The notes below the pieces were generated by a model that saw only the letters and a program-made list of their open reading frames with translations, had not been told where the DNA came from and ran no database searches. The position numbers were made by a program, and so were the translations under genes. From assembly GCA_963971575.1 (NCBI GenBank), contig OZ020625.1, forward strand, positions 19,808,829 to 19,872,828: a DNA stretch of 64,000 nucleotides, in the 5' to 3' direction. This stretch comes from Liopterus haemorrhoidalis. Taxonomy: Eukaryota > Arthropoda > Insecta > Coleoptera > Dytiscidae. Shown one piece after another: positions 5,146 through 61,747 of this stretch (its first letter is position 1; each line of letters opens with the position of its first letter).

Positions 5146-5629
5146 GAAAATATTAGGCTAAGTTATTTCTACTCTGCTGCTAGAATGTATTTTATATAAG
5201 TACTTTACGATGGCGGTCGGTCCTGTGGTGGCCACAGCTGATTTTTTAAATTGCATTCCTAAATAATTTTTTATTAGAAATAAGAAATTTCAAGAGTTTC
5301 TCGATATGACGTTTCTCGATATGACGTAAAAACTCACTAAGAAAGGATTTTTCGACCCCTATGAGGTGAAAAGGAGTAAAAAGTTTTTCACGGATTCCTC
5401 AGTATCTCTTAAGACAGATGAGATATCGACATGTTTAGAAACAAACTACGAATTTTACACTAATTAGCCTCTGACGGGGTGAATCTACACCTGAGGAAAG
5501 ATCCGGCAATGGGATCTATAAAGTACCATGACTTATAATAATTGCACGATGATGGCAAACCGTCAATAAACCGTAGCCAAGCACGGGTACTCAGCTAGTC
5601 CTATTGAGAACTGACACGCTCGGATACGC

Positions 5630-6312
5630 CACATGAGTCTTATACAATGTTCCGTAACTGCACACCTAAGTACCGCAGTCGCGGTTACGGTAAAGTCGTG
5701 GTAAGTTGTGGTTACCTGAAAACGAGTTTTAGTTACGGAACGGTAGTCACACCTCAGTTGATAAAACAGACAACGGAACTGTCATTTTATGGACGTTATA
5801 GGTTATAGATATTCTCTTACAAACTTATTAATAAAAATATTTGTTTTATTAGTACTTGTTTACAATGGCACATTATATAAGAACATATATGATTTTTCCC
5901 GATATTATTTTTCACGACATCGATCAATATTACTAAAAATCAATTACTTACACTCATTCTTACTGTTTTAATTATAGACTGTAGTAAAATAATATTATAA
6001 TTTACTACTTGCACTACAAAGAAATGATTAATTCCCTCCACTTAACTCTCGCCTTATTGTAATTGTTTTGAAATTCCCGCCTTTTGTAGTTTACATTAGA
6101 TCTGAAGTTTGTAGTGGGAGGAAATAACCACACTAACCGCGATATTTGTACGGTTAGTTTGGTTACAAAATAGTAACCAAAATTTTCAGTAACCGCGTTC
6201 CGAAACCTAACAATTTTCCTGAAAAGGTTAATGTCGTACACTTTCGGAACGGGAAACTTCAACCGCGGTTACTTTCGTCGAGTAATGGAACATTGTATAA
6301 ATGTGTTCTGTG
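5630..6312. mobile_element. hAT-type MITE nested in ISL2EU-1 leader
   Basis: 683 bp flanked by an exact 8-bp duplication GGATACGC (5622-5629 and 6313-6320). Ends are CACATGAG... and ...TTCTGTG with a strong subterminal inverted repeat, ATACAATGTTCC against GGAACATTGTAT. The ISL2EU-1 derivative at 60599 reads CTCAGATACGCAGTCTGG uninterrupted at the same place, an empty site with a single copy of the duplicated bases (one substitution). It contains no transposase; the ORFs in it are chance. Confidence 0.9.
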
Positions 6313-6404
6313 GGATACGCAGTCTGGTGGTCAAATATTGAACTACGAATCTGTAGTACTGTTTGAACTTATTACATATGTTCTAGTGTTTATTTTTTGT
6401 TAAA

Positions 6405-7934
6405 ATGTCGATAGAAGTTGTAAAAAACTATAAAAGTAGAACAAATTGTAGTGTTTTTGGCTGTCATTCAAGACAGGACAAAGATAGGCATCTTAGTTTT
6501 TTTTCATTTCCTAAGAAAAATGGAGTGAAAGTTAATATTAAGTCCAGATTGGGAAATGATTTGGTTATGGACAGGAGGAAGGCGTGGGAATATGTTTTGG
6601 GTTACGGCAAAAAAGTAACTGTTGCTATGCGAGTCTGTTCATTGCATTTTTCGCGAGATGATTATTCTCTTCCAGGTATGTATATTAATTATTTAAATAA
6701 GCTTTCAAAATAGGTTAGGTTTGTTACACTGTTTATAACTATAATTTTATGTGTAGATTATCCAACTAAAATCAAAAGATTGAAGAGGACAGCTGTTCCA
6801 TCGATGAATTTGCCAATCTGTAGAAGAGATAACAAATTTGAAGAAATAAGAAAAAGAAATTTGTTGAAACGTTCATATGTAACTAAACAAGTTTTACCAG
6901 AATACCCTATTCCTAGTACGAGTGCAAACTTGGAGCGTGTACCTGAAGAATATGAGGCTGCAGATATTTTATTATCTCTGGGTATACCCCCTGATTTAGA
7001 AAAAACAAAAAATGTATCAGTTCAAGTTTCCAGTGGTGATTTGCGATCACCATTTTTCTTCAAATTATTAACCGACAAACAAGTTTCTACAGCTACAGGT
7101 GTGCCTAATATGAAAATCTTAGACATGTTAGTGAGCCAGTTGTTAGAATTACATAATAATGAAAGAACCACTAGTGGAATTACATTAAAAGATAAGGTAG
7201 TTTCAACGTTGCTGAAACTGAAACAAGACTTGAGCTACAGTATGTTAGCAATTCTTTTTAATGTGACACCTGTAACATGCCGGCGAATTTTTCAAAATAT
7301 TATACAGGAGCTAGCTGCAGTGTTAAAATATGCCATTTATTTCCCTACCCGAGATAATATTTTGAGAAATTTGCCAAAATGTTTCAAGGAATCATTCTCA
7401 GATGTGCGAGTTATTTTAGATTGCACGGAAATACATGTGCAAAAACCGTCTTGTTTATGCTGCAGAATTAGAACCTATTCTCACTACAAAGGTAGTCACA
7501 CCATCAAGTATATGACTGGCGTTGCGCCTTCTGGGCTGATTACTTTTGTTAGTGAAGGATATGGTGGACGATCATCTGATAAAGCGATATTTGAACAGTC
7601 AAATATAATAAACAAATTAAATCCTTCTGATGCGATAATGGTAGATAAAGGTTTTCTTATAGATAATATAACAACAAAACATAAAATAAAATTAATTAGA
7701 CCTCCATTTTTACGTAAGTCTAAACAATTTAGTCAAGAAGAAGCTGAATTAACACGCAAAATTGCTGCAGCACGTGTTCACATTGAAAGAAGTAATGCTA
7801 GGATAAAAACTTTTAAAATTTTAAATGGAAAATTACCATGGGTACTAGCCTCGTATTGTGATGATATTTTTGTGACCATTTGTGGTATTGTAAATATATC
7901 TGCACCTATCATCACCGATGCTGGGTTTTTATAA
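6405..7934 (+). CDS. ISL2EU transposase: THAP domain plus DDE nuclease (two exons)
   Basis: Exon 1 is 6405-6675, intron 6676-6756 (GTATGT...TGTAG, 81 bp), exon 2 is 6757-7934; joined they give 482 residues in frame. Residues 13-85 form a THAP zinc finger (CSVFGC, AWEYVL, RVCSLHF), a C2CH DNA-binding module. A helix-turn-helix lies near 243-273 (LSYSMLAILF onward). The DDE nuclease has D312 (VILDCTEI), D387 (MVDKGF) and E434 (HIERSNARIK), as in HARBI1/ISL2EU enzymes. It cuts and pastes the element. The start ATG follows the nested MITE, which separates promoter-proximal sequence from the ORF by 683 bp and might damp expression (inference). No stop codons or frameshifts. Confidence 0.92.
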
Positions 7935-8560
7935 ATAGATTTAATTTTTTTTTATTTAATGTTTATATATTTTTATTTCGAAGTTGGTTGATTTTCAAAT
8001 TTGTCGATTTCAATAATTGAATGTCTTTATTTATAGTAGTACATACATAAAAATTATTGAATAATAATCAAGGTGAATAAATCCATGTTATTGTTTGTTC
8101 ATCTTTCTAATTTTTGTTCGAATTCAAGACCAGATTTTCCTTGTATTTTTTGTTCACGTTTTAAGTTGTTCGAGCACTAAATAATTCGAAGTTTGAGGGT
8201 CGATTTTATGTATAAAGATTTTTTAAATTTAGAAATATACGACTGATCTTAGTTCAGAATCCATTAAGACAGGATTCCTTCAGCCTCCTCACCACGTCAA
8301 GGTGTCAGTCTACGAGGAGGTTTAATTTGAAACAAAATACAGAAAGCAGCAAAAAAAAAAAAAAAAATCTTGTTATTAACCATACATTAGGATATGTAAC
8401 ATTATTATATTAATTAGTAATATTATAATTAGTATTTTAGAATAGATTATATTGATGTCCAGATATGTACACAACAATTTTGACAACCCATAGATATGTA
8501 AATTGTAATTTTGTTTGAAAATAAATATTATTGTACACAAATAACCACAAGTAAACGAAA
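7935..8560. other. Intergenic part of ISL2EU-1 between convergent genes
   Basis: AT-rich 3' flanks of both genes; AATAAA-type signals are present on each strand (for example near 8085 plus). A GC-richer segment at about 8255-8325 followed by a 17-base A run at about 8350-8367 could be a small retro-inserted tail, but I see no target duplication. Confidence 0.45.
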
Positions 8561-10372
8561 TTATTTATTTTTGCAAACCTCATGAATCATTTTTTGAAAA
8601 TATAAACTTTTCACAGAAGTTAACAAATCATCTGTAAATTCAGAATCGTATTTTACATTTATAATTTCAATTGACTGGTCGAAAGAAGAAAAAATGACAA
8701 AATCAGTTGAAGATACATTTAACATTCCCATTCCCATTTGTATTTGTGCAAAATACTTGTGCCTTCTTTTTAAATTTCCTTCACTATCTAAATATGGTAA
8801 AGCGGATTTTACTGTAGCAGCATTATGAAATTTGCCATCATAAGGGCATTTTATTTCTAACAATTTAACAGGTAAGTTATTCTCAAAAATTAATCCATCG
8901 GGAGAAAATCCAAGCCAGTGCTCTAAGTCATGCGTAACCAAACCGCATTTAAAAACAATATTTCCTGTTTGTACTGAGTAAGTAGATCTAGCTAGATCTT
9001 CAAATTTACTTCCATGTTCGACAAATTTATTTGTAAAGCCCTTAGGCCAAAAATATTTTTTTATTTTTGTATCCCAATCTGGATTTGCATTATTTATATA
9101 TGTATATAATTCATAAATCCTACTACCAGTCACTCTAAATTGCCTACAATTATGCCAAATACTTTTATTTTCTATTGTACTTACGAAGATGTTTTCCGGT
9201 TTATTATTATCAAACAATTTAAGGTAGGTATTTTTACAACAATCATTCAGATTTAAATTATAATTCATTAGTGCTGTATAAACAGGACTACAGATAGAAT
9301 TTTGAAAAAGAGATTTTAAAAAGTTGGTGTTGACTGAAACTAAATTTGTTTTTTCAATTGATGCGTGGTGCAATTCATGGCGTCCGCGTAGATGCTTGCT
9401 TAATTCTGAATCTGGTGCAGCTTGTAATAATTTATTAATGACATTAGTTGGATTCAGATTAGTAATTTTTTTCTTCGTTTGAAATTTTTCTTCAAGGCAT
9501 TGATATTTTGAAACAGGAGTTGGTTTATACGTTTCAACGACCGTGTTCTTTCTTTTTTTCCACCAACATTGGATATCAGTTGATGAAATTTTTTCTAATT
9601 CATTGATATCATTCCTGCAAGAAAACAAAAAAAAAAACAACAAACAATGTCCAACACGTACACAATATGTAAATAATAAAATAATCACGAAAGATATTAT
9701 TGCAAGCGCATTCATATAAGATTGATAAGTTAGAATCTAACTGTTAGATACTAAGATCAAGCTCGCATCAATTTACCAATATTGCTGACAGCCACACTAG
9801 TCAATGACTTACGCTACTCATCTCGAGTCACCAATCAAGCAAAGCAAAGTTATGCCTGTAACATGCAGTAGAAAAAGATCAATACATATTGTTTTACCTG
9901 ATTTGGCTACTAAAATTATGAAATTAAATTGGCATTATAATTGATCTGATTTATTAATATATACTTTTTATTATACAAATACAACCTGTTGCAGAAAAAT
10001 AAAACTGCACTAATATGCTTGCACTTGTTGCTTGCACCTGCCTTACAGGTACAAGTTGCAGATTTAACTTTAAGTTGCTCCTGTCCAACTAACACTAATT
10101 TTATTTCATGAGGCACTGAAGATAATGCACTTGTTTGCAAACAGAATGCATATATTGTAAATTCAGATAGTTGACACTCAGCTTCTAATTTACCACATAA
10201 AATTATGTGTCCCGCATTTAACACCTGCTCACCTACAAATTACACTTCAATAAATATACTGAAATAAACCTTTAAATACTGTAATTTGATGCCCACCTTC
10301 TGTTATACACCTCGACACATGTGTAGCGCTTAGAAATTCAAAAATATCGCAAATATTTACTCGCATTTTCAT
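8561..10372 (-). CDS. ISL2EU SWIM zinc finger plus YqaJ/lambda-exonuclease-like nuclease (three exons)
   Basis: Exons 10372-10297, 10232-9986 and 9614-8561 join in phase (76+247+1054 nt) to 458 residues; donors are GTGGGC and GTTGTA, acceptors TTTGTAG and TCTTGCAG. The second intron spans a segment with stops, supporting splicing. Residues 86-98 are a SWIM motif (CTC...KCKH). The YqaJ domain is in the C-terminal half: ITGSRIYEL-like VTGSRIYELY, EHGSKFED, LGFSPDGL (D347), LLEIKCP (E361, K363) and YFAQIQ, the active-site set of the PD-(D/E)XK lambda exonuclease family. Likely a 5'-3' DNA exonuclease acting with the transposase; the precise role in transposition is unknown. Partner gene is the convergent transposase. 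Confidence 0.88.
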
Positions 10373-10497
10373 AAAATAAAAATGTACTGTGCTTAAATTA
10401 ACCTGTTCCCTGTTAGCATATTCACAGCTGAATACTAGACAATTCAGCCATATTGCCTTGTATTACAGCGCCTCCAACGGTAATGTCACTTCTCAAT

Positions 10498-14449: not shown

Positions 14450-14999
14450 ATTGGTTTATAAATAATTTTTGGTCAAATTTACGTTTTCTTGCTGTATATA
14501 GTATATTTGAATTATAACCGAGTATTAAAAAAGTGTATAAATATATGTGAATCCATTTTATGATAAAATTTGCTGCTCGTAAACGAATATTTTCAGAGGT
14601 TATAATGTTGGTGCTCACAGAGAAAATAAAATATTATACTTTGAACTTAAAACATTTATTTGTATGCTTAATATCTACACATTTCTCAATAAATTGTATA
14701 GAACGAGAGCTCTAAGGCACGCCTACCCAGGGACTTTGTTTGCTTCGACGGACTATAATTGTTGTTTCTTTTCAATAGCTCAATTCAAGGACGCCTAACT
14801 CGACATATGTCACTATTTAAAAAATTGAAGTTTTCCTTCATATCCCGTACTTCTGGTTTGTTCCGGAAAATTTCACTACTACCATCCGATTCTTTGGATA
14901 GACTTCGTCTAAAATTTTTTTATCAACTTACTCCCACCTCGAGTTTCGAGAAAAACTGGATGGACGAGTGGTCTGATCAATGTTAAGAATTATTTTCAG

Positions 15000-17900: not shown

Positions 17901-20900
17901 GTGCTTTGAAAATAATCTCATGCTAAATACCGAAATAAAAATCATCCTCTGCTTTTCCATGAACACAACAATGCACTTATTGTCGGCCCATATTTACATT
18001 TGCAACGACAAAAAAAAAAGTCATTGTTCCCAATCTACAAAATTTTTGGTCATAATAAGTGATAATCTAAACTGGCCAATCTCAAATTGGATAATCACGT
18101 GGACTATTTGCTACCTAAAGTTAGCAAATCTTGTTTTATATTGAACAAGCATAAGGATATGGTTACTGCAAGTATACTCAGAGCTGCTTACTTTGTAATA
18201 TTTCACGTAACAATGTGCTATGGCATTTTGTTTTGGGGTAGATCATGTGTATCGTAAAAAGTTTTTCTCCACAACCGCTAGAGAATTCTAGAGACCAATT
18301 CTAAAATCAATTTTGATTACAGAAAGTTAATATTCTAACACAAGAGTTGGAATGTTATTCTAAAATACTTTTCTTCTTATGCATTTTGCGTGTATTTCAT
18401 TCCTTCAATAGTTAAGGAATAATTATTTCATGCTTGTTGTCAGTTGTTATTGTTCACTATAAGGTATGCATTCTTCCGCGCTGAATAGTAGTGCGGACGG
18501 TATCTATGACGTATGGATACATTTAACAAATGACAAGTTATTTTAAAAAATTTAGTAACATAACTTACTAAAAAGTGACAAGATAGTGGCCGATGTGAGG
18601 CAAACTAAACTAAAATTAAACAAAAAAAAAAAGTAAAAAAATAAGTTAATAATTATTTAATTTGTTATGTAAAGTAGGGTCTATGACTCGGTTGGAAAGA
18701 AGAGAAAAATCGATGCTCGTGGTTTCTCACGGTCACCTGCGGCTCGCGCTCGGAATGTTCTACTCGCATCGAATTTTCTCATTTCAACCTTGTAGTTTCA
18801 ATACTATTCTAGTTCAAATTCTCACTATTCGCATAATAGCAGGTGTCCCTTTAGATCATCTTGCAGATCCTTTTTTCCAGTTTTGTCTGAATTAACTCTT
18901 CCATCTTTTTATATATTAGAAGCCGTAATGTTTGTTAAAAATAATCCGTACCTAATCGCTATTCATTCATTTCCATACTTATCATACCCGCAATATATAG
19001 CATATGCACTGTACAGTAAAGATCCGCACTATATGGCTGTAACATTATGTTATATGGGAAACTATTTTGTTAACTCGTGTGGTTTCAGTTCATATTATAT
19101 GTGTCATCTTGACTAAACCTCATCATTTAGGTAATGTGTTATTGGTTAAATAAATTTATTATTTATAAGAAAATAACTATATTTAAACAACTGAAAGTTT
19201 GTCTCAATAATCAATGCAAAATTGTTTGCAGCTAGTGAAACATCTTCCAGTGAATCAGATGAGAGTTGGGAGCCGTTGGCCATAAACAAGCGTAAACAAC
19301 CCACAACAACAAGGTCATCACATTTCATAAGACACAAGAAAATGCATTCTGGAGGGAAACCATTCAAATGTGATCAGTGTGATAAAGCATTTTCAGTGTC
19401 TTCAAATTTGATTACTCACAAACGAACACATTCTGGAGAGAAACCATTCAAATATCAATGTGATAAAGCATTTTCAATGTCTTCAAGTCTCATTAATCAC
19501 AAACGAGTACATTCTGGAGAGAAACCATTCAAATGTGATCAATGTGATAAAGCATTTACAGTGTCTTCAAATTTGATTACTCACAAACGAACACATTCTG
19601 GAGAGAAACCATTCAAATGTGATCAATGTGATAAAGCATTTTCACGTTCAGCTGATCTCATTATACACAAACGAATACATACTGGAGAGAAATCATTCAA
19701 ATGTGATCAGTGTGATAAAGCATTTTCAGTGTCTTCAAATCTCATTACTCACAAACGAATACATTCTGGAGCGAAACCATTCAAATGTGATCAGTGTGAT
19801 AAAGCATTTTCACAATCATCAAATCTCATTATTCACAAACGAAAACATTCTGGTGAGAGACCATTCAAATGTGATCATTGTGAAAAATCATTTTCACGTT
19901 CATCTGATCTCATTATACACAAACGAAAACATACTGGAGAGAAACCATTCAAATGTGATCAGTGTGATAAAGCATTTTCCATGTCTTCAAGTCTCATTAG
20001 GCACAAACGATTACATTCTGGAGAGAAACCATTCAAATGTGATCAGTGTGATAAAGCATTTTCAGTGTCTTCAAATTTGATTACTCACAAACGAACACAT
20101 TCTGGAGAGAAACCATTCAAATATCAATGTGATAAAGCATTTTCAATGTCTTCAAGTCTCATTAATCACAAACGAGTACGTTCTGGAGAGAAACCATTCA
20201 AATGTGATCAATGTGATAAAGCATTTACAGTGTCTTCAAATTTGATTACTCACAAACGAACACATTCTGGAGAGAAACCATTCAAATGTGATCAATGTGA
20301 TAAAGCATTTTCACGTTCAGCTGATCTCATTATACACAAACGAATACATACTGGAGAGAAATCATTCAAATGTGATCAGTGTGATAAAGCATTTTCAGTG
20401 TCTTCAAATCTCATTACTCACAAACGAATACATTCTGGAGCGAAACCATTCAAATGTGATCAGTGTGATAAAGCATTTTCACAATCATCAAATCTCATTA
20501 TTCACAAACGAAAACATTCTGGTGTGAGACCATTCAAATGTGATCATTGTGAAAAATCATTTTCACGTTCATCTGATCTCATTATACACAAACGAAAACA
20601 TACTGGAGAGAAACCATTCAAATGTGATCAGTGTGATAAAGCATTTTCCATGTCTTCAAGTCTCATTAGGCACAAACGATTACATTCTGGAGAGAAACCA
20701 TTCAAATGTGATCAATGTGATAAAGCATTTTCAAGGTCTTCACTTCTGGTTACTCACAAACGACTACATTCTGGAGAGAAACCATTCAAATGTGATCAGT
20801 GTGATAAAGCATTTTCAGTGTCTTCAAATGTCATTACTCACAAACGAATGCATTCTGGAGAGAAACCATTCAAATGTGATCAGTGTGATAAAGCATTTTC

Positions 20901-21246
20901 AATGTCTTCAAGTCTCATTAGGCACAAACAAGTACATTCTGGAGAGAAACCATTCAAATGTGATCAATGTGATAAAGCATTTTCAAGGTCTTCACTTCTG
21001 GTTACTCACAAACGATTACATTCTGGAGAGAAACCATTCAAATGTGATCAGTGTGATAAAGCATTTTCAGTGTCTTCAAATCTCATTACTCACAAACGAA
21101 TGCATTCTGGAGAGAAACTATTCAAATGTGATCAGTGTGATAAAATATTTGCACAGTCCTCAAGTCTCATTACTCAATTACGTTCTGGAGAGGAACCATA
21201 CAAATGTGGTCAGTGTGATAAAGAAATTTTTCCACGACCACTATAG
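15000..21246 (+). CDS. ZAD-type C2H2 zinc-finger protein gene, left copy (first exon uncertain)
   Basis: Exons 15000-15267, 15897-16067, 16245-16379, 16498-16656 and 19232-21246, all with AG/GT borders and phase-1 junctions after the first. The first listed exon encodes the second half of a ZAD dimerisation domain (ICSECC...KVNGFYEFREQ). The middle exons encode acidic linkers with VKTEYED, VKSEPVD and IKTECGD motifs resembling sumoylation sites. The last exon starts ASETSSSESDESWEPL and then carries about 21 C2H2 fingers with HSGEKPFKCDQC linkers; two fingers (KPFKYQC) lack the first Cys. Likely a nuclear DNA-binding regulator; target unknown. The N-terminal ZAD half, with the start codon, is not securely found upstream, so this copy may be incomplete. 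Confidence 0.8.
16857..19116 (+). pseudogene. Decayed LINE reverse transcriptase in zinc-finger intron (left copy)
   Basis: Fragments in several frames: QHGFVKYKSNTTAIF (RT fingers), GFSYDFTKAFDLIHRSII (motif A), RVPQGSILGPVLFLLYVNDL after a frame change, ILYADDT (catalytic YADD), and at 18850-18960 SELTLPSFYILEAVMFVKNN, the C-terminal segment typical of CR1-like RTs. A ~550-bp stretch at 18300-18850 breaks it. The same relic lies in the right copy (37880-40130), so insertion preceded duplication. Not functional. Confidence 0.82.
17586..17882 (-). mobile_element. LINE 3' end fragment, CR1/L2-like
   Basis: Present only in the left copy. Minus strand encodes VFNLWNSLPEEAVSAPS and NTFKARI, the C-terminal signature of CR1/L2-type ORF2 proteins, followed by a 3' tail of AAT repeats (plus-strand TTATTATTATT at 17586). 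Flanks share AACTT, a possible 5-bp target duplication. The right copy lacks the insert at 38895. Confidence 0.8.
19369..20706 (+). repeat. Eight-finger block duplicated in tandem (669-bp period)
   Basis: 19369-20037 and 20038-20706 each encode the same eight fingers, including the same damaged finger (KPFKYQC). They differ by few bases, for example GERPF against GVRPF and VHSGEKP against VRSGEKP. 669 = 8x84 minus 3, the missing codon of the damaged finger. Duplication therefore followed the damage and is recent. Confidence 0.9.
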
Positions 21247-26996: not shown

Positions 26997-28832
26997 ATGG
27001 CTGAAGAGAACAATGAAGCTTGTGTAGATGACAAAATATATTTTTCTAACGTAGAATATAATAACTATTCAAAATCAAGCGAAAATGCAAGAGTAGGAGA
27101 GGCAGTTTTTTTTGCAAAACATAATTTTATGTGGACAGCATTAGACAAGATGAATTTAATATATACGCTTTGTGTTTGCAGTCAACTGCAATTCTTACCG
27201 AACCGCATGTGATTACAATTTGAAAAAAATAAAGCATTTGTAGACACAATTTCGTGCACCTGTAAAGTTGGAAACAGCTCTAAATGTAAGTAAACATGTT
27301 TCAGCTGTTTTATTGAATTGTACCAGGAGCTAATTGTTGCTAAATGGATTACGGCACAATTAAGCCTTTCTAATTTTTGATACTATAAAAAATTTTAGAC
27401 AATGTTTTTTCTCTTTTCTGCTGGTTGGTTTGTTTTAGGAATCCCTTAAACGAATTGGACTAACTATCTCCATCTGACATAACATGGTGCCTGGTCTCGA
27501 ACCAAATCATGTACAGAAGAACAATATAGACCTGTTCCAATTTTAGAAATGGATTGTTTCAAAAAAACATATATGCCAGTTGGAGTTCTTACCAGGAGTC
27601 AACGAGAAATTATAAAAACAAAAATTTTGTATTAGATTTGCCTGATAGCCCATTTAGTTTAAACTTGTATGTATTATTTATTTATTCAAAATTAGCCTGC
27701 AGATTTTCGTAATTTTATATTGTACAATAATTAAATATAAATTTTTATTTTCAGCACAAGAACAAATCAAGAGGTCATAAACTACCCTCCTTGTGTTCAA
27801 TATCTGTACAATAATGCCTGTCAATCCGTAATAATGATGGAATTGCATTCTTTTTACGTAAATATAAAAACTTGTTGTGAAGATTTTGTAAGTAGTTTTA
27901 GAGATGAATACAATACTACAATTTGTAGTAAATATTCCAAGGAAAATTGTTTTTCTGAAAGAAAATATAGAATTACGGGTTCAAGAATATATGAACTATT
28001 TACGTACAATATAAATGGAGACTGGCAAGGGAAAAGCGAGAAATATTTTAACCCTAAACATTTCACGAACAAATATGTTGAATATGGAAGGAAATATGAA
28101 AAAGAAGCAAGAGAACAGTTTTGTTTGAATATGGGGTTGAATGTTGTTGAATTTGGGGTAATAACATCAAACTGAAATAAGTGGGTAGGATATTCACCAG
28201 ATGGTGTTGTTTTTGATGGGATGATCCAGTGGCGTTGATTGAAATAAAATGCCCATTCATTGGTAAATAGTATGCATATTTTTATTTAACAATGTTTACA
28301 TATTTAATTTTTATTTTAGGTGCAACAGAAAATATAGACGATGTATTAAAAAAATTAAAGTACATTAATATTAAACATGACCAAGTGTAGGGTGACCATT
28401 TTCTTAAGAAAGCAATGCGGGACGGAACAAAAAAACAAAAGGTCCTCACCTCCCAAATCCAAGTGAAGAGCAAAAAAAAAGGTCCTCATTTCCTCAAATA
28501 CAAGTTATAAAATACGGGACACAATGTTAAAATGCGGGACTTTTGCGGGACGCATCTTATTGCGGGACAAAATGTTAGAATGCGGGACGAATGGTCACCC
28601 TAACCAAGTGGCCTTAATTAAGCGACATGCTTATTATGCTCAAATACAGACAGGAATGAGCATTCTTAACATACAAAAATGTTATTTTATTATATATTGC
28701 TCCTTTAATAAAAGTATGGCTGTGACATACATAAATTTTGATTATGAATTTTCTAAAAATTTATTGTTTAATGTTAAACAAAAATATTTTGAAAAAATGG
28801 TCCATTATATTTGTAATAAACATGTTTCATAA
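26997..28832 (+). pseudogene. ISL2EU-2 SWIM-YqaJ nuclease, broken
   Basis: 26997-27212 encodes an N-terminal segment (MAEENNEACVDDKIYFSN...). A worn SWIM motif follows at 27250-27320 (SCTCKVGNSSKC, then a frame change before the His). The YqaJ domain is at 27834-28260: ERKYRITGSRIYEL, EYGRKYEKEAREQF, then GYSPDGV after a stop at 28173, and IEIKCPF. 28615-28832 gives the C-terminal part (KRHAYYAQIQTGMS). Stops, frameshifts and the MITE at 28388 make it non-functional. Family role as for ISL2EU-1. Confidence 0.82.
28388..28602. mobile_element. Small hAT-type MITE
   Basis: 215 bp with exact 12-bp terminal inverted repeats TAGGGTGACCAT/ATGGTCACCCTA and an exact 8-bp duplication ACCAAGTG (28380-28387, 28603-28610). 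Internal TGCGGGAC repeats. Carries a module (AAGTGAAGAGC, A run, GGTCCTCAT) also found in the MITE at 30701. Confidence 0.92.
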
Positions 28833-29040
28833 TACAATGCATCATATTTAATAACAATGTACATTGGACAACCCATTAATATCTAGTGTCCTATTTAGAA
28901 GATAATATGCAGGAAAATTTTATACAAAATAGAAATTTTATACGGTAATCTTTTATAAATAGGATACTGGACTTAATGGCTACCTGTAAAGACTCTTAAT
29001 AAGGTAGAAGCAAAAATAACAAAAAATAATTAGAAATATA

Positions 29041-30449
29041 CTATAAAATTGTGTCTGATGCTAAAATTGGGGATGATAAATTGGTAACTCCTGAAATAAC
29101 TGTAATTATTTGTTCTATGTGGTAAATTAGATAAATGTTAAATTTTGTGCTTAATATTTTAAAAACTTTCATGCGTTGATAGCTTCGCTCAACATTAACT
29201 CTAGCTGCAGCTACTTTTGTATTATAAATTGCTTCTTCCTTATTAAGTTGTTTTTTTTTTCCTCTTAAAAACGGTGGTCGATATAATTTTATGCCGTATC
29301 GTTGACACTCTTTATCAATAAAAAAACCTTTGTCGGTCATAATAGCACAACTTTTGGCAATAGCCTTGTCTGAAGCTCTTCCTCCGAAAGGCTTACTTAT
29401 AAAAGTAATAAGACCACCAGGAGATACACCTGTCAGAACTTTAATTGATTCAGTCTAATACAATTTGCGTGTCATGAAAATCACTAAAACATACTGGCAT
29501 ATTATTCATTATTTGTTCTTTTGTTGGGAACGTTACCGCGGCACTTAACATTTCACTTCAAATTTTAAGCATATCACTAAAATATGTCCTACATAAATTT
29601 GGGGTAATTCTAAACAGTATAGCGATAACAATGAAACTTAGATTTAATTTTAATTTAACAAACACTAGGATAATCCTACTTTTTATGTTTAGCCTGTGAG
29701 CTCTTTTGTCACAATAAATTACTTAAATTATATAAATTAATTAATTTAATAATTGAAATGAACCTAATCCAGTGAAACTTGTAAGAACTTTATCATCCGT
29801 GATAATGTCTGCAACCGTAATAAATGTTGGAGTATTAACTTGTACTTGAAAGTCTCTGTATGTAACATGTTGTACTTCAGGTTCTTTTCTTGATAATTCT
29901 AATAATGCATTGACTGCAATTATTTCTTCTGTGTTGATTTCTTCTTCGGTGTCAATATCTTCAAGACAGCTCTCATCTTCAAGTGTTGACAACGGTAGCT
30001 CTTGCTCTTCTATCAACTTACGTCTATTTTCCATTCTTAAATTTCTGCCTGAAGACGTGGAAGGGCCTTTTAGTATATTAACTGATGATTTAGGTAAATT
30101 CTGGGTGGGGTAAATGCCTTTTTTCAGTCTTTTCTTGGACACACCTTTAAAGCCATAAATAATTTAAATACAAACAGGTTATAAATGTAAATCAAAATAG
30201 TTTACCTTTAAAAAAATCACTTTCCAGAAAATGCAACGAGCAAACACGCAAGTAAGGGCTTGGATTTTTGCCCATTTTTAGTTTTTGGATCCAAAGAGAT
30301 CTACGATCCACTTTTTCTCTACTTCCAAATGTCGTTTCAATTGTTAATATTTCTTTCCATTTAGGAAAATGATGGAATGTTAAAGTGGGATTCTTTTTTA
30401 TCCACGATTTACATTGTGGCACACAACAAAATGAATTATTTTTTGCCAT
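29041..30449 (-). pseudogene. ISL2EU-2 THAP-DDE transposase, broken
   Basis: 30449-30192 encodes an open THAP domain (FCCVPQC, SLWIQKL, RVCSLHF). The next exon begins near 30145 after an AAAG acceptor (SKKRLKKGIYPTQNLPK) and runs to 29741. The helix-turn-helix and first Asp (QIVLD) follow at 29470-29680 with stops, then about 30 codons seen in ISL2EU-1 are missing. 29455-29041 holds GGLITFISKPFGGRASDKA, MTDKGF (second D) and RVNVERSYQRMKVF (E). Two stops and the deletion kill it. Confidence 0.85.
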
Positions 30450-35024: not shown

Positions 35025-36019
35025 ACCAATCTAGAGCCACTGCCAAGTGATACAACGGAAACTGAAACTACATTTCTACCTCAGTGATGCATTTGAATGA
35101 TAGCAACCATTTCGTTCATTTTCGTTAAGGCCCATTTAGACTTTAAAATTAAACAAATCTATTTTAAAAATAATTAAAACTAAATAGCCCTTAGATATAT
35201 CCGATTTGCCCCTTAAATATATGTAAATTAGTCAGATTTGAGGAATATAGGCCGATGTAAAATATATATATAAATCAGATTTGAGGATTTATAACCTACC
35301 TTTTACACAAGCCATTTAAAAATATATGTTTTATCAATTTAATGAAGACTTATATACGAAGCAAATGAAGAAAAAAATCGCTGGGATTTTTTAATGTAAA
35401 TTTTATCGTGATATAGTTTTTTAAAAAATAAATAGGAGCTCTTAGTACTCAAATAACGAATAAAAATGATTATCAAAAGACTTTTTATCAATAAGATATT
35501 CTTAGACATCCAGCATTCTGTTGGCTTCTTACACGCTGAAATGTGTAAAAAATCACACTTAACATACATTTTTGTTTGTATTATGTTCCAAGCTACAGAT
35601 ATCTTACAGGTAAGATGCGTCAGTGCTTATATAAAAATGGAACACACTTTGAACACTTGTAAATAACAATATTTTACTTTAGCGTCGTTTTAAAAAATAT
35701 AATTGCAAAAAATGTCTCCTAATTCGTAAAAAAATGTGTGAGTAATAGTTGTTTCTTTTCAATAGCTCAATTCAAGGACGCCTAACTCGACATATGTCAC
35801 TATTTAAAAAATTGAAGTTTTCCTTCATATCCCGTACTTCTGTACTACCATCCGATTCTTTGGATAGACTTCGTCTATGATTTTTTTATCAACTTACTCC
35901 CACCTCGCGTTTCGAGAAAAACTGGATGGACGAGTGGTCTGATGCACCCTATATAGTAGTTTTTCCCAAACCTATCTAAGTCGGACAAATCTCTGATCAA
36001 TGTTAACAATTATTTTCAG

Positions 36020-39000
36020 GTCTCCCCAGTGTTGCGCAATCAGGGAGCGATATGTTCAGAATGTTGCAGTAAAGTGAATGGTTTCTATGAATTCCGTGAG
36101 CAATACTTGCGGAACAGTCAAATATATATAAATTACACATCACAACTGAGTTCTGCCTCTGAAACTCGCGGAGAGTTGTGTGTTTATTTGACGGATTTCA
36201 AAAACGAACAGAAACAATGTTTGGGGGCCTTGGAAAAGTACTGTCATAACAGTGACTCAGTGAAAACAGAAAAGGAAGACTGCACAGGTATTGTAGCGGC
36301 TGTCCCATTTAACTGGGAATGTATGGCGATCTCTAAAACTACCAAAAATACCACTTCAGTTAAACTAGACCAAATTTTCTATATAACTAGTGCAGCTCAA
36401 TGGCATTTTTAAAATGCATAGTAAACTAGATATAAGCAAAAAACTAGTATTCGCCAAATTGAATTTTCCCTTATAATTTTTGATGTAGTGAAAAACATAT
36501 ACTACACTTACTTTGCTTACTTTCCAGTGCCGCAGTAAAATTACTGATCATTTTTATTTATTAGTAATAACTTAAATGTTTCTTGTAGTAAGTCGTGTCT
36601 CTTGCAGTTTTTTAGATCCCTACACATTCCCGGTTAAATGGGACACAGTATCGCAATATAAGACATTTTTATTATATCATCAGCCTTATTTATTTATCTT
36701 TGCTTTATTTTGAAAATTGTAGGATGTGTAAAAGAGGTTGAATAATTAGTAAATACATAAATATTTGCTAATATAATGAATTAAACTTTGACTGGTATAC
36801 TGATTAAAACTTTAATAATATTGTTTATTTCATATTCCATTATTTATAGAAAGAGACTAGTTGTAGTTCCTTTAAATGATAGTACGTGTTTGTTCCAGGA
36901 ACGAATTTGAATGATGGCGCAGGTGGTGACATACATCCTGATGTCACCAGAGACAGCGATGTTAGCGATATTATTAAAGAAGATGTGGATGTTAAGACAG
37001 AATATGAAGATATGACTGATGACTATATAATGATGGCTGGGACAGAGCATACAGCTGAATGGGAGAATGGTCAGTAACGGGCACATTTACAACTAACTTC
37101 TAATTATGACTGTTGTTCATATTTCATTGTCACAGTTCTGTTTATTTCAGACGAATTGGGGCAACGATCAGTAAACATCTTAAATAAAATATATATTTTG
37201 CAGTGAGTAATTCGTTTGTATTTCACTGATGATGTGTTTATTTCAGGTATCACAAATGGAGTTACAGTTGTCGTTTATCATGATGGGATGAACACAGAAG
37301 AGACTGTCGTCAAGTCTGAACCTGTCGACAGCAGTGAATGTGAAGGAAATGTACTAGCAAGTACAGTTGTTTCAAACATTGGTGAGCAGAGCTAGCTTTA
37401 TTAACAGCTTAATGCGTATATCACGCCCCTTGTACTGTACATCTCGGGCGCCTAGTACTGAAAAATTCACAGACACAATATCAACTATGTCAATTGTTCA
37501 GTAACTATAAGTGTATATATTTCAGAGAGTCGCGATACTGGGTTGACATATATCATTTCATCTGCTGACGACATGTTCCAGTATAACTACAAAACTAATA
37601 TAATCCTCAATGAGGAGATTGATATCAAGCCTGAATATGGAGATGACGGTGAATATGAGGAGAGTGCAGCTGCGCAAAATACAGGTCAGTCAATAGTTTA
37701 ATATTATTGTACTGGTTGTGATCTTCCAATACTGATATTTCCAGTTTCTATTTACTGAATACATGCACAGGATCACAATGAGTAATAGTTTGCTAGTTGT
37801 AGTAATTTGTTAATATAATTTATCCAATAAATGATTTAATTCTTATCGACCTCTCACAAACTCTCTGACTACAGTTTGATACTTGAAATATTGTTTCTTT
37901 GTAGACTCTCATCTTTCATCAGCCAATATACAATCTTTACTTCATTTCAACATGGTTTTGTTAAATATAAATCGACCACAACAGCCATTTTTTCATTTCT
38001 CAATTCCATGCATAAAAACTTAGAGGCAAAATTACATTGCTTAGGCTTCTCTTACGATTTTATTAAAGCCTTCGATTTAGTCCATCGCTCCATAATAGGA
38101 ATTAAATTAAGGACATCGGTAATGTAGCTCCACCACAATCGTGGCTCTCATTATTTTTTTCTTATAGAGAGCAAGTTGTTTCTACAAGCCAAAACCATAT
38201 TGTTTTTTATTTATTTTTTTTTCTGCCTGATAACCGGGCAAGCCTAATAACAATATCACACTATTTACATATAAAAAAAAATTAATTTAAATTATACCAG
38301 TGACATAATATTTTATATATCTAAACAGAGTATCATAGCATAAAATCATAAAATACAAATACTACAATAGACCTTATTCCAAAACTAGAGAGAAATTAGT
38401 AATAAAAATAATAATATACATTAATAATAATAAATTACAATAGGGGCAGAACGTGTTTTTTAAATTGATTAATATTGTACAAAAAATATCAGGATAATTC
38501 AGTGAAATTTTAATAAATTGTAAGCAAATTCTATTGAGTGGGGAATTGTATGCAGAGTTAGTTTTATTTAGTGGCAAAGAAAAGAACTCGTGATTTCAAG
38601 TGCAATGTAACGGAACACGCATATACAGTTGCTTTAAAAGTCAATTAAACTATTTAACAACTTATATAGAAATGTCAATTTCAAATATCAAATAATAATT
38701 AGAAATCTCATAAGCGACAGTGTAACAAAGGAGTTTCACAAGGTTCTATACTTGGTCCAGTATTATTTCTCTTGTATGTAAATGATTTACTTTAATTATT
38801 TCCAAATAATGCTATTTGTAATACTATTTTGTATGGGGGTGACACTTCACACATTACTTCATATTGTGGATGCATCGTCACTAGCTCTGGATGCTAAAAA
38901 TAACTTAGTAGCAATGAGTCGGTAGTGCTTTGAAAATAATCTCATGCGGAATACCGAAATAAAATTTATCCTCTGCTTTTCCATGAACAGAACAATGCAC

Positions 39001-41630
39001 TTATTGCCGGCCCATATTTTCACTTGCAATGACAAAAAAAAGAGTGTTCCCAATCTACAAAATTTTTGTACATAATAAGTGATAACCTAAACTGGATAAG
39101 CACGTGGACTATTTGCTACCTAAACTTAGCAAATCTTGTTTTATATTTAACAAGCATAAGGATATGGTTTCTGCAAGTATACTAAGGGCTGCTTACTTTG
39201 TAATATTTCACGTAACAATGTGCTATGGCATTTTGTGTTGGGGTAGATCACGTGTATCGTAAAAAGATTTTCTCCACGACCGCTAGAGAATTTACCAAAT
39301 CTAAAATCAATTTTTTATTTATTTATTTATTTATTTATTTATTATTAGTTAATATTCTAAAACAAGAGTTGGAATGTTATTCTAAAATACTTTTCTTCTT
39401 ATGCATTTTGCGTGTATTTCATTCCTTCAATAGTTAAGGAATAATTATTTCATGCTTGTTATCAGTTGTTATTGTTCACTATAAGGTATGCATTATTCCG
39501 CGCTGAAAAGTAGTGCGGATGGTATCTATGACGTATGGATACATTTAACAAATGTATATACAAAGTTTTTTTTTAAATATACTAACATAACTTACTAAAA
39601 AGTAACAAGTAAGTGGCCGTGTGAGGAAAATTAAACTAAAATAAAAAAAAAGTAAAAAAATAAGTATAAATAATTAATTAATTTGGTATGTAAAGTAGGG
39701 TCTATGACTCGGTTGGAAGAGAAAAATCGATGCTCGTGGTTTCTCACGGTCACCTGCGGCTTGCGCTCGGAATGTTCCACTCGCATCGAATTTTCTCATT
39801 TCAACCTTGTAGTTTCAATACTATTCTAGTTCAAATTCTTACTATGCGCATAATAGCAAGTGTCCCTTTAGATCATCTTGCAGATCCCTTTTTCCAGTTT
39901 TGTCTGAATTAACTCTTCCATCTTTTTATGTATTAGAAGCCGTAATGTTTGTTAAAAATAATCCGTACCTTATCACTATTCATTCATTTCCATACTTATC
40001 ATACCCGCAATATATAGCAACTGCACCGTACAGTAAAGATCCCCACTATATGGCTGTGACATTATGTTACATGGAACACTATTTTGTTAACTCGTGTGGT
40101 TTCAGTTCGTATTATATGTGTCATGTTGACTAAACCTCATCATTTAGGTAATGTGTTATTGGTTAAATAAATGTATTATTTATAAGAAAATAACTATATT
40201 TAAACAACTGCAAGTTTGTCTCAATAATCAATGCAAAATTATTTGCAGCTAGTGAATCATCTTCCAGTGGATCAGATGAGAGTTGGGAGCCGTTAGCCAT
40301 AAACAAACGTAAACAACCCACAACAACAAGGTCATCACATTTCATAAGATACAAGAAAATGCATTCTGGAGGGAAACAATTCAAATGTGATCAGTGTGAT
40401 AAAGCATTTACAAAGTCTTCAAATCTCATTACTCACAAACGAGTACATTCTGGAGAGAAACCATTCAAATGTGATCAGTGTGATAAAGCATTTTCAATGT
40501 CTTCAAGTCTCATTAATCACAAACGAGTACATTCTGGAGAGAAACCATTCAAATGTGATCAGTGTGATAAAGGATTTTCAGTATCTTCAAATTTGGTTCG
40601 TCACAAACGAACACATTCTGGAGAGAAACCATTCAAATGTGATCAATGTCATAAAGCATTTTCAATGTCTTCACATCTGGTTATACACAAACGATTACAT
40701 TCTGGAGAAAAACCATTCAAATGTTATCAATGTGATAAAGTATTTTCAACGGCTTCACATCTAGTTATTCACAAACGATTACATTCTGGAGAGAAACCAT
40801 TCAAATGTGATCAGTGTGATAAAGCATTTTCAGTGTCTTCAAATTTGATTACTCACAAACGAACACATTCTGGAGAGAAACCATTCAAATGTGATCAGTG
40901 TGTTAAAGCATTTTCAAAGTCTTCACATCTGGTTACTCACAAACGATTACATGCTGGAGAGAAGCCATTCAAATGTGAGCAGTGTGATAAAGAATTTTCA
41001 CAATCATCACATCTCATTACGCACAAACAAGTACATTCTGGAAAGAAACCATTCAAATGTGATCAGTGTGATAAAGCATTTTCACACTCATCTAATCTCA
41101 TAAAACACAAACGAGTACATTCTGGAGAGAAACCTTTCAAATGTAATCAGTGTGTTAAAGCATTTACCGATTCATCATATCTCATTAAGCACAAACGGTC
41201 ACATTCTGGAGAAAAACCATTCAAATGTGATCAGTGTGATAAAGCATTTTCACACTCATCTAATCTCATAAAACACAAACGAATACATTCTGGAGAGAAA
41301 CCTTTCAAATGTAATCAGTGTGTTAAAGCATTTACCGATTCATCATATCTCATTAAGCACAAACGGTCACATTCTGGAGAAAAACCATTCAAATGTGATC
41401 AGTGTGATAAAGCATTTTCAGTGTCTTCAAATTTGATTACTCACAAACGAACACATTCTGGAGAGAAACCATTCAAATGTGATCAGTGTGTTAAAGCATT
41501 TATCTATTCATCACATCTCATTAGGCACAAACGATCACATTCTGGAGAAAAACCATTCAAATGTGATCAGTGTGATAAAGCATTTTCAGTGTCTTCAAAT
41601 CTCATTACTCACAAACGAGTACATTCTTGA
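36020..41630 (+). CDS. ZAD-type C2H2 zinc-finger protein gene, right copy (3' truncated)
   Basis: Exons 36020-36287, 36899-37069, 37247-37381, 37526-37684 and 40249-41630 with intact AG/GT borders. The ZAD half (ICSECC.KVNGFYEFREQ), acidic linkers (VKTEYED, VKSEPVD) and 15 consecutive C2H2 fingers are present. Fingers 9-10 and 11-12 are a duplicated pair. The ORF ends where a GGA linker codon is TGA (41628); a second stop and decayed fingers follow, so the ancestral array was longer. A candidate upstream exon ends at 35609 (see findings). Probably a nuclear DNA-binding protein; could be expressed as a shortened protein or be on its way to a pseudogene. Confidence 0.78.
37888..40130 (+). pseudogene. 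Decayed LINE reverse transcriptase in zinc-finger intron (right copy)
   Basis: Same relic as 16857-19116: QHGFVKYKSTTTAIFSFLNS, GFSYDFIKAFDLVHRSII, the QGSILGP and YADD-like region at 38735-38850 and SELTLPSFYVLEAVMFVKNN at 39900-39960. It includes a minus-strand LINE-2-family 3' fragment at 38215-38590 (NSPLNRICLQF, tail of T-rich repeats) that is mostly deleted in the left copy (17165-17250). Confidence 0.8.
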
Positions 41631-44930: not shown

Positions 44931-46328
44931 CAGTGTTGTAATAGATACATTTGAAAATATATCTAGATACAGATACAGATACTTGAGGAAAAATGTATCT
45001 AGATGCAGAGACAGATACAAATTTTAAAAAGTATCTAGATACAGATACATTTTTTTTTACAATGTATCTAGATACTTTAAGATACTTTCGGAAAAATGAA
45101 AACACCACAAAAAAAAGAAATAACTAGAGCAAGGAATATATTTGTTCACAATAAAAAATAAGTTATGCACTATTATTACTCTTAAAATAAACACAAATAG
45201 CCTTTGAAGCTGTGTGTCAGAAATATTAACTAACTATATACCTATGTAATCTTTAAAAAAATCACTTTTTTATTCCAATTTCAGCGAATATCTCGAACAT
45301 TTTTTGTTCGCTAATAAATTACTGATTATTAAATGAGTATTTAGGATGACAAAAATAAAACAAAAATTTTATTTATTATATTTTTCTTTATTTAATTCAC
45401 ATTTATAAAATTAATTCTTATTCTTAGATTAGATAGTTACTTAATGGTTGTTTTGCTTAACCGTTGTTAATAAAATTATTTAATATTTTTTTATTTATTA
45501 TTTTTTTAAATTTATTCAGAGCTGGAAATACAATTACACTTTATTAAAATTTTATAGATAAAAATAAATTAAATAAATAAATAAATTATAAGTTTGAGAA
45601 TTATGATAAAATACAAGTTCTATATATAATTAATTAAATTTTGGAAAACATCCTTTAATTTTTTTCCTTTTTTTTTAAATAAACAAAAATAAAAAATTAA
45701 AGGATGTTTTCCAAAATTTAATTAATAACATATAGAACTTGTATTTTATCATAATTCTCAAACTTATAATTTATTTATTTAATTTATTTTTATCTATAAA
45801 ATTTTAATAAAATGTAATAAATTTTTTTTAATGAAATAATTTTATTAACAACGGTTACCCAAACAGCCTTTAAATATAGTTACTAAACGTGTTTTTTATT
45901 ATTATTATTATAGTTTGCAAAGTAAATTGCCAGGCTGCAAGGGTTATACGTATTTCAAATGCGAAACATGTGGAAAGATAACAACCTTAACAAAGATAAA
46001 AACCTTCCATAAATTTCATTTAAATTAAACTCCTGTTAAAATTTGAGTTAACTTTCATAATGTTACAAATATGCAACTGAATGATGCTAAATGTATTACC
46101 AACTTGAAAAATCGTAAGGACATATTTTGTAAAAAGACCTTGAAAAAGACAAAATAGGAAAGTATCTGAAAAAAGTACCTGAAATACAGATACTTAGATA
46201 CTGATTTAAATATCTAGATACAGATACAGATACATATTTTAAAATGTACCTAGATACAGTAACTTGATACTTGCACAGTATCTAGTTACTGTATCTAGAT
46301 ACAAATACCTAGATACATTACAACACTG
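44931..46328. mobile_element. hAT-like element with large internal foldback
   Basis: Ends CAGTGTTGTAAT and ATTACAACACTG; exact 8-bp duplication CATTTAGA (44923-44930, 46329-46336). Both flanks carry many copies of a GTATCTAGATAC/CAGATACAGATAC motif (44957-45085 and 46150-46320). The centre is a long inverted repeat. No transposase recognised; 45951-46015 encodes FKCETCGK...HKFH, perhaps a zinc-finger trace. Confidence 0.9.
45434..45890. repeat. Long inverted repeat, arms about 200 bp, spacer about 25 bp
   Basis: Left arm starts CTTAACCGTTGTTAATAAAA, passes AATTATAAGTTTGAGAATTA and TTTTGGAAAACATCCTTTAA; the right arm returns TTAAAGGATGTTTTCCAAAA, TAATTCTCAAACTTATAATT and TTTTATTAACAACGGTTA. 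Centre near 45678. Would fold into a long hairpin if transcribed. Confidence 0.9.
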
Positions 46329-60000: not shown

Positions 60001-60141
60001 TAGAGAATGGTGGCGGAAGGGGTACAGATCCAAGGCGCCACGCTGTGAGGGGCGCTAAAATATACGATGGTGATTCAAATATAAACGGTAATTCTTTTTT
60101 AACCATTTATTTATTAATAATATACACATGAGAAACCTACA

Positions 60142-60288
60142 GCCGACCGGCGTAGCGTAGTGGTAACACATCTGCTCTGCGTTGCTAAGGTCTCGGGTTC
60201 GAATCCCTTTCAGGCATGGAATTTTTCACAAATAATAATTGTCCTGGCCAATTGCCAAAGCAGCAAAGGCCATTAAAATTTAAAAAAA
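60142..60288 (+). mobile_element. tRNA-derived SINE
   Basis: A box TAGCGTAGTGGTAACACATC and B box GGGTTCGAATCCC with correct spacing at 60151-60212; a body follows and ends in an A-rich tail (60280-60288). A 3' extension and A tail point to a SINE, not a tRNA gene. It sits within mariner debris. Confidence 0.75.
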
Positions 60289-60420: not shown

Positions 60421-60598
60421 ATATGTCTTAGTGTCCGCTACTGAAAGGGCGCCTGTGATTTTTATCCCAGGGCGCTTAAAATTCTGGGTACAGCCTTAAT
60501 TGGCCAGTTATTGTTTTATAGACACCTGGAGAGATAAACTGTTAAGCCATAATTATTGCATTGAGAATTTTGTTCACAATTATCGGCTGTAAAATTAT

Positions 60599-61745
60599 TG
60601 AGAACTGACACGCTCAGATACGCAGTCTGGTGGTCCAATATTGTACTATGCGCTCTAGTACTGTTTGAACTTATTACATACGTATGTTCTAGTGTTGAAT
60701 TTTTGTTAGAATATTGATAGAAGTTGTGAAAAACTATAAAAGTAGAACCAATTGTAGTGTTTTTTTGCTGTCAAGCAAGACAGGACAAAAATCTTAGTTT
60801 TTTTCTTTTCTTAAAAAAAAAAAGAGAGGGAAAGTTACTAATAGTAACTTTCCCTGTCTATCGCCCTAGTCGAAAACGCGGGCGGAAGCGAAAACGCAGA
60901 GAGAGATCGGCACGCTCGGCGAAAGGCGCCGGAACCCCGGTAACATATGAAATTGATAATCTGATATGTTCAGATCATCCTGAACGGTGGATCACTTGGC
61001 TCGTGGGTCGATGAAGAACGCAGCTAATTGCGCGTCAACTTGTGAACTGCAGGACACATGAACATCGACATTTCGAACGCACATTGCGGTCCTCGGATAC
61101 TGTTCCTGGACCACTCCTGGCTGAGGGTCGTGCAAAATTACAAGACTGCCGGTCGCGTCGATGGAGAGTCCACATTGGAAAAGATTTGGTTATGGACAGG
61201 AGGAAGGCATAGGAATATATTTTGAGTTAAAAAGTAACTGATACTATGTAAGTTTGTTCATTACAATTGTCGCAGATAAACCACCTGCACTAATATGTTT
61301 GCACCTGCAAGTTGCATATTTAACTTTTAGCTGCTCCTGTCCAACTAAAACTAATTTTAATTCATGAGGCAATGAACATAATGCACTTGTTTACAAACAG
61401 AATCCATATATTGTAAATTCAGATGACCGACACTCAGATGTACCACATAAAATTACGTGCCCGGCATTTAACACCTGCTCAACTACAAATTGCACTTCCA
61501 TAAATCTACTGAAATTAAACTTTAAATACTGTAATTTGGTGCTCACCTTCTGTTATACACCTCGACACATGTGTAGCGCTTAAAAATTAAAAAATTTCGC
61601 AAATATTTACTCGCATTTTTATAAAATAAAAATGTACTATGCTTAAATTAACCTGTTCGCTATCAGCATATTGACAGCTGGGTACTAGCGTGAACAGCCA
61701 TATTGCCTTGGAGCATAGCGCCGTCACCGGTAATGTCACTTCTCA
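60599..61745 (+). mobile_element. ISL2EU-1 deletion derivative containing rDNA
   Basis: Same ends as ISL2EU-1 with AT flanks (60597-60598, 61746-61747). 60599-60840 matches the ISL2EU-1 leader and start of the THAP exon; 61167-61265 resumes the THAP exon (GATTTGGTTATGGACAGGAG); 61270-61745 matches the SWIM end. Between the two THAP pieces lies about 320 bp of rDNA. The DDE and YqaJ parts are deleted. Non-autonomous. Confidence 0.9.
60976..61131 (+). rRNA. 5.8S rRNA sequence captured inside a transposon (probable pseudogene)
   Basis: Matches the universally conserved 5.8S core: GGTGGATCACTTGGCTCGTG, GGTCGATGAAGAACGCAGC, AACTTGTGAACTGCAGGACA, GAACATCGACATTTCGAACG, CACATTGCGGTCC, and the 3' CTCCTGGCTGAGGGTCGT. 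About 156 nt, the normal length. Upstream GC-rich sequence (60850-60975) looks like ITS1 and 61132-61166 like the start of ITS2. A few apparent C-to-T changes (CACTTGG where CACTCGG is usual). No 18S or 28S sequence nearby, so not part of an rDNA unit. Confidence 0.92.
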
Positions 61746-61747
61746 AT

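Follow-up and report, generated by a model that had tools for sequence, protein, structure and literature searches.

How did a full-length 5.8S rRNA sequence come to lie within the THAP remnant of a DNA transposon, and does the transposon carry it about the genome? The question is raised by a non-autonomous ISL2EU element in a stretch of 64,000 nucleotides from the beetle Liopterus haemorrhoidalis (C14:19808829-19872828, hereafter the window), which also holds a complete copy of the family, used here as the reference. In window coordinates, the features are the following.

60597..60598, no strand: left AT target-site copy, AT duplication being a feature of ISL2EU as described in PMC4482050
60599..61745, plus strand: non-autonomous ISL2EU element of 1147 bp, with ends TGAGAACTGACA and TGTCACTTCTCA and without the DDE transposase and YqaJ genes
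60617..60843, plus strand: left part, decayed THAP-exon sequence, 83% to window 6314-6540
60823..60859, no strand: junction palindrome with arms 60823-60840 and 60842-60859, 17 of 18 positions pairing, in which the right arm reads as the left (THAP) arm copied in inverse orientation
60844..61166, plus strand: insert of 323 bp, present in 4 of the 34 copies read and absent in 30
60861..61161, plus strand: rDNA part of the insert (301 bp, insert positions 18-318: 3' part of ITS1, 5.8S, 5' part of ITS2), 98% to the host array
60976..61130, plus strand: complete 5.8S rRNA sequence (Rfam), equal to the array at 155 of 155 sites
61162..61166, plus strand: filler of 5 nt at the right junction, absent from the rDNA at that place in the alignment
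61167..61745, plus strand: right part, with the remaining THAP remnant and the 3' end of the element
61746..61747, no strand: right AT target-site copy
5605..10495, plus strand: complete ISL2EU copy (Pfam), the reference, with AT flanks at 5603-5604 and 10496-10497
6405..6677: THAP exon of the reference copy
6714..7931: DDE/HTH ORF of the reference copy
8561..9736, minus strand: YqaJ ORF of the reference copy

The hallmarks of ISL2EU are the AT target-site duplication and, in autonomous members, a THAP domain, a DDE transposase and a YqaJ exonuclease ORF (PMC4482050), and the THAP, DDE_Tnp_4/HTH and YqaJ domains recognised by Pfam in the complete copy agree with that description. A search with the transposase protein returned 546 matches at E <= 1e-20, the best among the matches listed having 47% identity over 96% of the query; the species-named ones, among the matches listed (120 of 546), are from arthropods. 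Compared with the complete copy, the derivative has none of the ORFs; what is left is the 5' terminus, the THAP exon and, at the 3' terminus, about 0.5 kb. A deletion of about 680 bp at its left end was considered and rejected, the difference being instead a MITE-like insert in the complete copy (5630-6312), with inverted ends and an 8-bp repeat, GGATACGC. Elsewhere in the window, ORF translations at 27741-30163 resemble by eye the YqaJ-type protein and the DDE transposase of 6714-9736, which suggests a second, more divergent ISL2EU copy; two similar units (14913-21246 and 35960-41630) each consist of a ZAD-like exon, so labelled by reading its translation, followed by long C2H2 zinc-finger ORFs; and tRNA-like A- and B-box sequence, possibly a SINE, was noticed by eye to the left of the element, at 60130-60230.

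The THAP remnant of the derivative is split at 60843/61167, with 60617-60843 corresponding to 6314-6540 and 61167-61277 to 6541-6659 of the complete copy, in which the two blocks abut. The original prediction had thus rightly recognised the ISL2EU ends with their AT flanks and the THAP homology on both sides of a foreign segment; the boundaries that it put at about 60845 and 61166 are real, their exact positions being 60843/60844 and 61166/61167. Its description of the segment as a full-length 5.8S gene with parts of ITS1 and ITS2 is borne out by Rfam (RF00002, 111.9 bits, E 2.2e-27) and by the alignment to the species' own rDNA; the 5.8S of the window copy (L001) equals that of the array at every site, and that of a second copy (L002) at 154 of 155. 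Two mispairs in a 5.8S stem were tried as a mark of a pseudogene and rejected, because the array has the same bases. The ITS1 part of the insert is 95% to the array and, like several dispersed fragments, is without 3 bp that the array has; an older state of ITS1 thus seems to survive in the insert.

The host array, on the minus strand at C14:20.278-20.372 Mb, is separated from the window copy by 0.41 Mb; more units are found on C36 and C55. This present distance is suggestive at most, because the original event could lie elsewhere on C14. The portion of the array that was read contains 18S and 5.8S, with a 5S gene nearby, and the 28S portion reads N. The 5S gene, at C14:20.269 Mb (L067 9040-9158), is about 9 kb from the 5.8S of an array unit and on the same strand, so that 5S and 45S rDNA are possibly linked. 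Relatives of the 5.8S sequence were sought in viral and prokaryote contigs, with two patterns per collection and 0 matches, and plasmid records gave no match.

The state of the element before the insertion can be read directly in 27 of the 30 insert-free copies; in the other three the site was missed by the search string (L013) or the left side is lacking (L030, L034). An empty copy such as L007 reads GTTACTATTAAGTCCAGATT (in a longer reading, AGGGAAAGTTACTATTAAGTCCAGATT), where the four filled copies read GTTACTAATAGTAACTTTCC...TCGATGGAG/AGTCCACATT. The filled junctions are laid out as AGGGAAAGTTACTA-ATAGTAACTTTCC(C/T)TGTC(C/T)A, then rDNA, then TGGAG-AGTCCACATT. At most about 3 bp of the element was lost at the insert, or else AGT was duplicated; there is no poly(A) at the insert, and the repeat at its edges does not exceed these 3 bp. 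About 6 nt at the left junction and 5 nt at the right are explained by neither parent, which is the junction structure of human class 2 templated insertions (TSIP). To the right of the left junction lies the inverted copy of the preceding THAP bases, and this arm carries the complement of a C that marks 10 of the 27 empty copies in which the site is readable, each of the 10 being on C14; the template of the arm was therefore local. The window has, if an AT run is disregarded, one other palindrome with arms of at least 17 nt and a short centre (46250-46271 and its partner), so that one placed exactly at the junction is unlikely to be there by chance. Against the fold-back detail, the centre of the palindrome is only 1 nt long, and the fold-back primer is therefore unreadable.

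A fold-back copy, unexplained bases and a patch from a distant place together point to error-prone break repair. Polymerase theta is known for repair of this error-prone kind. We infer, with a probability of roughly 0.85, that the insert is a patch inserted at a double-strand break in a resident element, later spread by segmental duplication. A non-autonomous ISL2EU copy would have been resident on C14, in a stretch undergoing duplication along the chromosome, and the break would have fallen in its THAP remnant. Folding back on itself, the left end would then have served as template for about 10-13 nt (snap-back synthesis), whereupon a stretch that extends from ITS1 through 5.8S into ITS2 would have been copied, in a direction that is likewise inferred, from an rRNA gene or a precursor RNA. 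It would have been joined in with a few bases that neither parent explains, and the element thus filled would have reached four C14 positions via segmental duplication, possibly with gene conversion between paralogues.

The genomic distribution of the element bears on this last step. A search of the genome (1.02 Gb, 91 contigs) with the window gave 3680 candidates, of which the best 40 were scored, so that counts for the element family are lower bounds; 23 of these 40 places are on C14 and 17 on other contigs, and we read all 23 and 11 of the 17 (34 loci). The insert was found at four of them, all on C14: in the window (L001) and at 15.07 Mb (L002), 15.10 Mb (L003) and 17.06 Mb (L004). Both junctions thus recur at three other C14 places and are not unique to the window. 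A genome search with the insert only, in which 38 of 38 candidates were scored and the 15.10 Mb copy appeared as two pieces, gave no further insert copy with THAP edges. In the 15.10 Mb copy, about 1.17 kb of extra DNA is nested in the 5.8S insert; its ends are inverted (ATGAGAGGATAAATCTGACG...), and by eye it is flanked by a short repeat, CACTTGGC. It is probably a second transposon in the rDNA patch.

At least one flank is in register with a window flank at 22 of the 23 C14 loci, the window's own included (the exception is L034), and at 0 of the 11 loci on other chromosomes, one of which (L009) has a weak match out of register. Since all four insert-bearing copies share their flanks, they spread by segmental duplication and not by transposition. 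The C14 group is therefore mostly one insertion multiplied in this way, the rDNA-bearing version occurring only in that setting, although the element family itself has inserted at many places, as its copies with other flanks on other chromosomes show. The mobile rDNA fragment that had been envisaged is thus not supported, none of the 11 copies read on other chromosomes having the insert or flanks in register, and the multiplication by transposition that characterises multicopy Pack-TIRs is not seen in any of the four filled copies.

The inserts differ from one another at 0-4 of 321-323 sites, and their surroundings, by alignment sums, diverge more: 4/323 in the insert vs 58/2196 around it for L001 and L002, which could be chance, 2/321 vs 60/2154 for L001 and L004, and 0/321 vs 28/1238 for L003 and L004. 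Simple joint descent fits this poorly, and gene conversion or another homogenising process is needed; the uniformity of the insert could come from conversion between paralogues or from a late spread. In a tree with several long branches, built from the right-hand half of the element together with its flank, the four carriers fall within a group of seven together with L005, L023 and L028, and the data are compatible both with a single clade of carriers and with its absence (p-AU 0.136).

Pieces of rDNA are not confined to this element. The 38 places found with the insert comprise 5 rows of the four filled copies, 7 units or edges of the array and 26 dispersed pieces, of which 18 were read with 1.5-kb flanks, making 19 fragments with the insert. 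The dispersed pieces lie on many contigs and their flanks are unrelated in register, with the exception of L038 and L048, which have a common upstream sequence and may represent one event. The special link between rDNA and ISL2EU that the original prediction had implied is not supported by this result: with short rDNA pieces scattered over many unrelated places of the genome, the ISL2EU target looks incidental.

Ten of the 19 fragments start at -7 to 0 relative to the first C of a CCCTAG motif in ITS1: the insert, L045 and L058 at -3, L050 and L060 at -1, L038, L048 and L056 at 0, L049 at -4 and L057 at -4 to -7. Two of these, L056 and L057, owe their position to reading by eye, and BLAST puts their ends at 11558 and 11521 vs 11531-11535; with BLAST ends alone the count falls to 8 of 19, and to 7 should L038 and L048 be a single event. 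The 3' ends are spread over about 255 nt. Under a uniform null, chosen after the cluster had been seen, 20,000 draws of 19 ends over 731 positions never placed more than 5 of the 19 in one 5-nt bin. The fragments carry ITS1 variants of different states, which suggests recurrent insertion events. The 1101 bp of ITS1 upstream gave few dispersed pieces, none of which ends at the boundary, and one locus (L046) crosses the boundary with a small deletion, reaching ITS1 on the 18S side as well as 28S. The predicted fold of the array ITS1 (z -5.7 for the whole 220-nt fold) has a terminal GC hairpin, with the endpoint at its base. No convincing target-site duplication was found around the 18 dispersed fragments, the best candidate being TAAAAAA at L050, 6-8 nt off the boundaries.

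Two further observations concern these pieces. At C1:112644642-112644703, a 5.8S-region piece aligns with the insert starting at insert position 17, and it may add one more fragment to those that share the ITS1 end. Eight short dispersed matches to ITS1 query positions 623-774 (L065:8272-9372:-) start at 623-638 and end mostly at 714-721; a separate repeat may lie in this part of ITS1 or be similar to it.

Several other origins of the insert deserve consideration. The original prediction saw the rDNA as filler captured during abortive repair of an excision gap, yielding a mobile fragment. The filler and repair of a break as its best account stand, and the intact termini and AT duplication speak for such an origin; the excision gap itself is not supported, because abortive gap repair should remove the interior around the filler, whereas here the interior is kept, with almost no element lost at the insert and with empty copies in the same flanks, and the filled copies share those flanks. 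We regard this origin as highly improbable. A retropseudogene made by a LINE, with target-site duplication, is very unlikely: the variable 3' ends without a tail do recall tailless retropseudogenes (PMC5322556), but the insert has no duplication of 8-35 bp, and the other fragments offer nothing convincing of the kind. As for an assembly artefact, we found no point in its support, and the recurrence of both junctions at each of four places, in one of which another element is nested within the insert, makes its probability close to negligible.

Two versions of the break-repair account differ as to the template, and we give them equal weight, each just short of an even chance. In one, a putative pre-rRNA intermediate, beginning in ITS1 about 118 nt upstream of where the Rfam match to 5.8S starts, would have been reverse transcribed from variable internal positions as far as its 5' end, its cDNA patching breaks here and at about nine other places. 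The shared ITS1 start with variable 3' ends and the recurrence suggested by differing ITS1 states speak for such an RNA, as does the description of human class 2 templated insertions as RNA-derived patches without target-site duplications (PMC5110952). On the other hand, pieces of 18S have no common start at the mature 5' end: among the best 40 of 135 candidates scored, some of them two pieces of one locus, only one dispersed match starts within 10 nt of it, and the starts are scattered. In addition, L046 indicates that longer rDNA pieces insert too. In the other version, rDNA or pre-rRNA that is still unprocessed would be the template, and synthesis proceeding from the 5.8S side would stall at a GC hairpin, AGCGCG-CTCG-CGCGCT, that lies immediately upstream; no RNA processing is then needed to account for the endpoint. 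The position of the endpoint in the predicted fold, the scattered 18S starts and the proximity of an array on the same chromosome fit this reading, although older fragments with differing ITS1 (L049 and L057 are 79% alike) share the endpoint all the same.

Break repair in a resident element, as preferred here, has parallels in known systems. On the best reading, the patch belongs to a kind already seen in class 2 templated insertions of humans and in animal Pack-TIRs. As described in PMC5110952, the former share with our insert a patch from a distant locus, the lack of poly(A) and of target-site duplications of 5 bp or more, and a small deletion with unexplained bases at the junctions; our case differs in its nucleolar rDNA patch, in the fold-back copy at one junction and in an endpoint recurring at many loci. 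As in Pack-TIRs, the ends of a TIR transposon enclose captured host sequence, and the Pack-TIRs attributed to transposition-independent gap filling (PMC8277862) are alike in having gained host DNA when a resident copy was broken, with next to no element loss and a possible donor on the same chromosome. For most single-copy Pack-TIRs, that paper likewise argues from little element loss against an excision gap. They differ from the present element, which has rDNA as filler (the words rRNA and rDNA are absent from the main text of PMC8277862) and spread by segmental duplication. The tailless retropseudogenes described in PMC5322556 resemble our fragments in their common 5' end, variable 3' ends and lack of a tail; unlike them, they were selected for duplications of 8-35 nt, and nucleolar rRNAs are under-represented among them. 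In maize, Ds2 elements with filler DNA (PMC3260210) are also deleted DNA transposons with host-derived filler, but they are hAT elements, described as filled from genes, other transposons or intergenic DNA. In the open-licence literature we met no earlier account of rDNA capture by ISL2EU, and one may exist in print.

All together, the empty alleles indicate that the transposon, for all its appearance of having captured rDNA, most likely served break repair as a passive target, and that its insert spread by chromosomal duplication. Of these results, it is the recurrent endpoint in ITS1 that deserves to be followed. Tentatively, and at odds clearly below even, we propose that a processed rRNA precursor with a fixed start in ITS1 is repeatedly reverse transcribed and patches chromosome breaks, the ISL2EU insert being a recent member of the series. 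If so, the genome would hold fossils of nucleolar RNA, in successive ITS1 variants with one common 5' end. The scattered pieces seem to preserve past ITS1 sequences gone from the assembled copies of the array, and rDNA pieces with such a recurrent endpoint would allow the patching of chromosome breaks by nucleolar RNA to be tested in animals.
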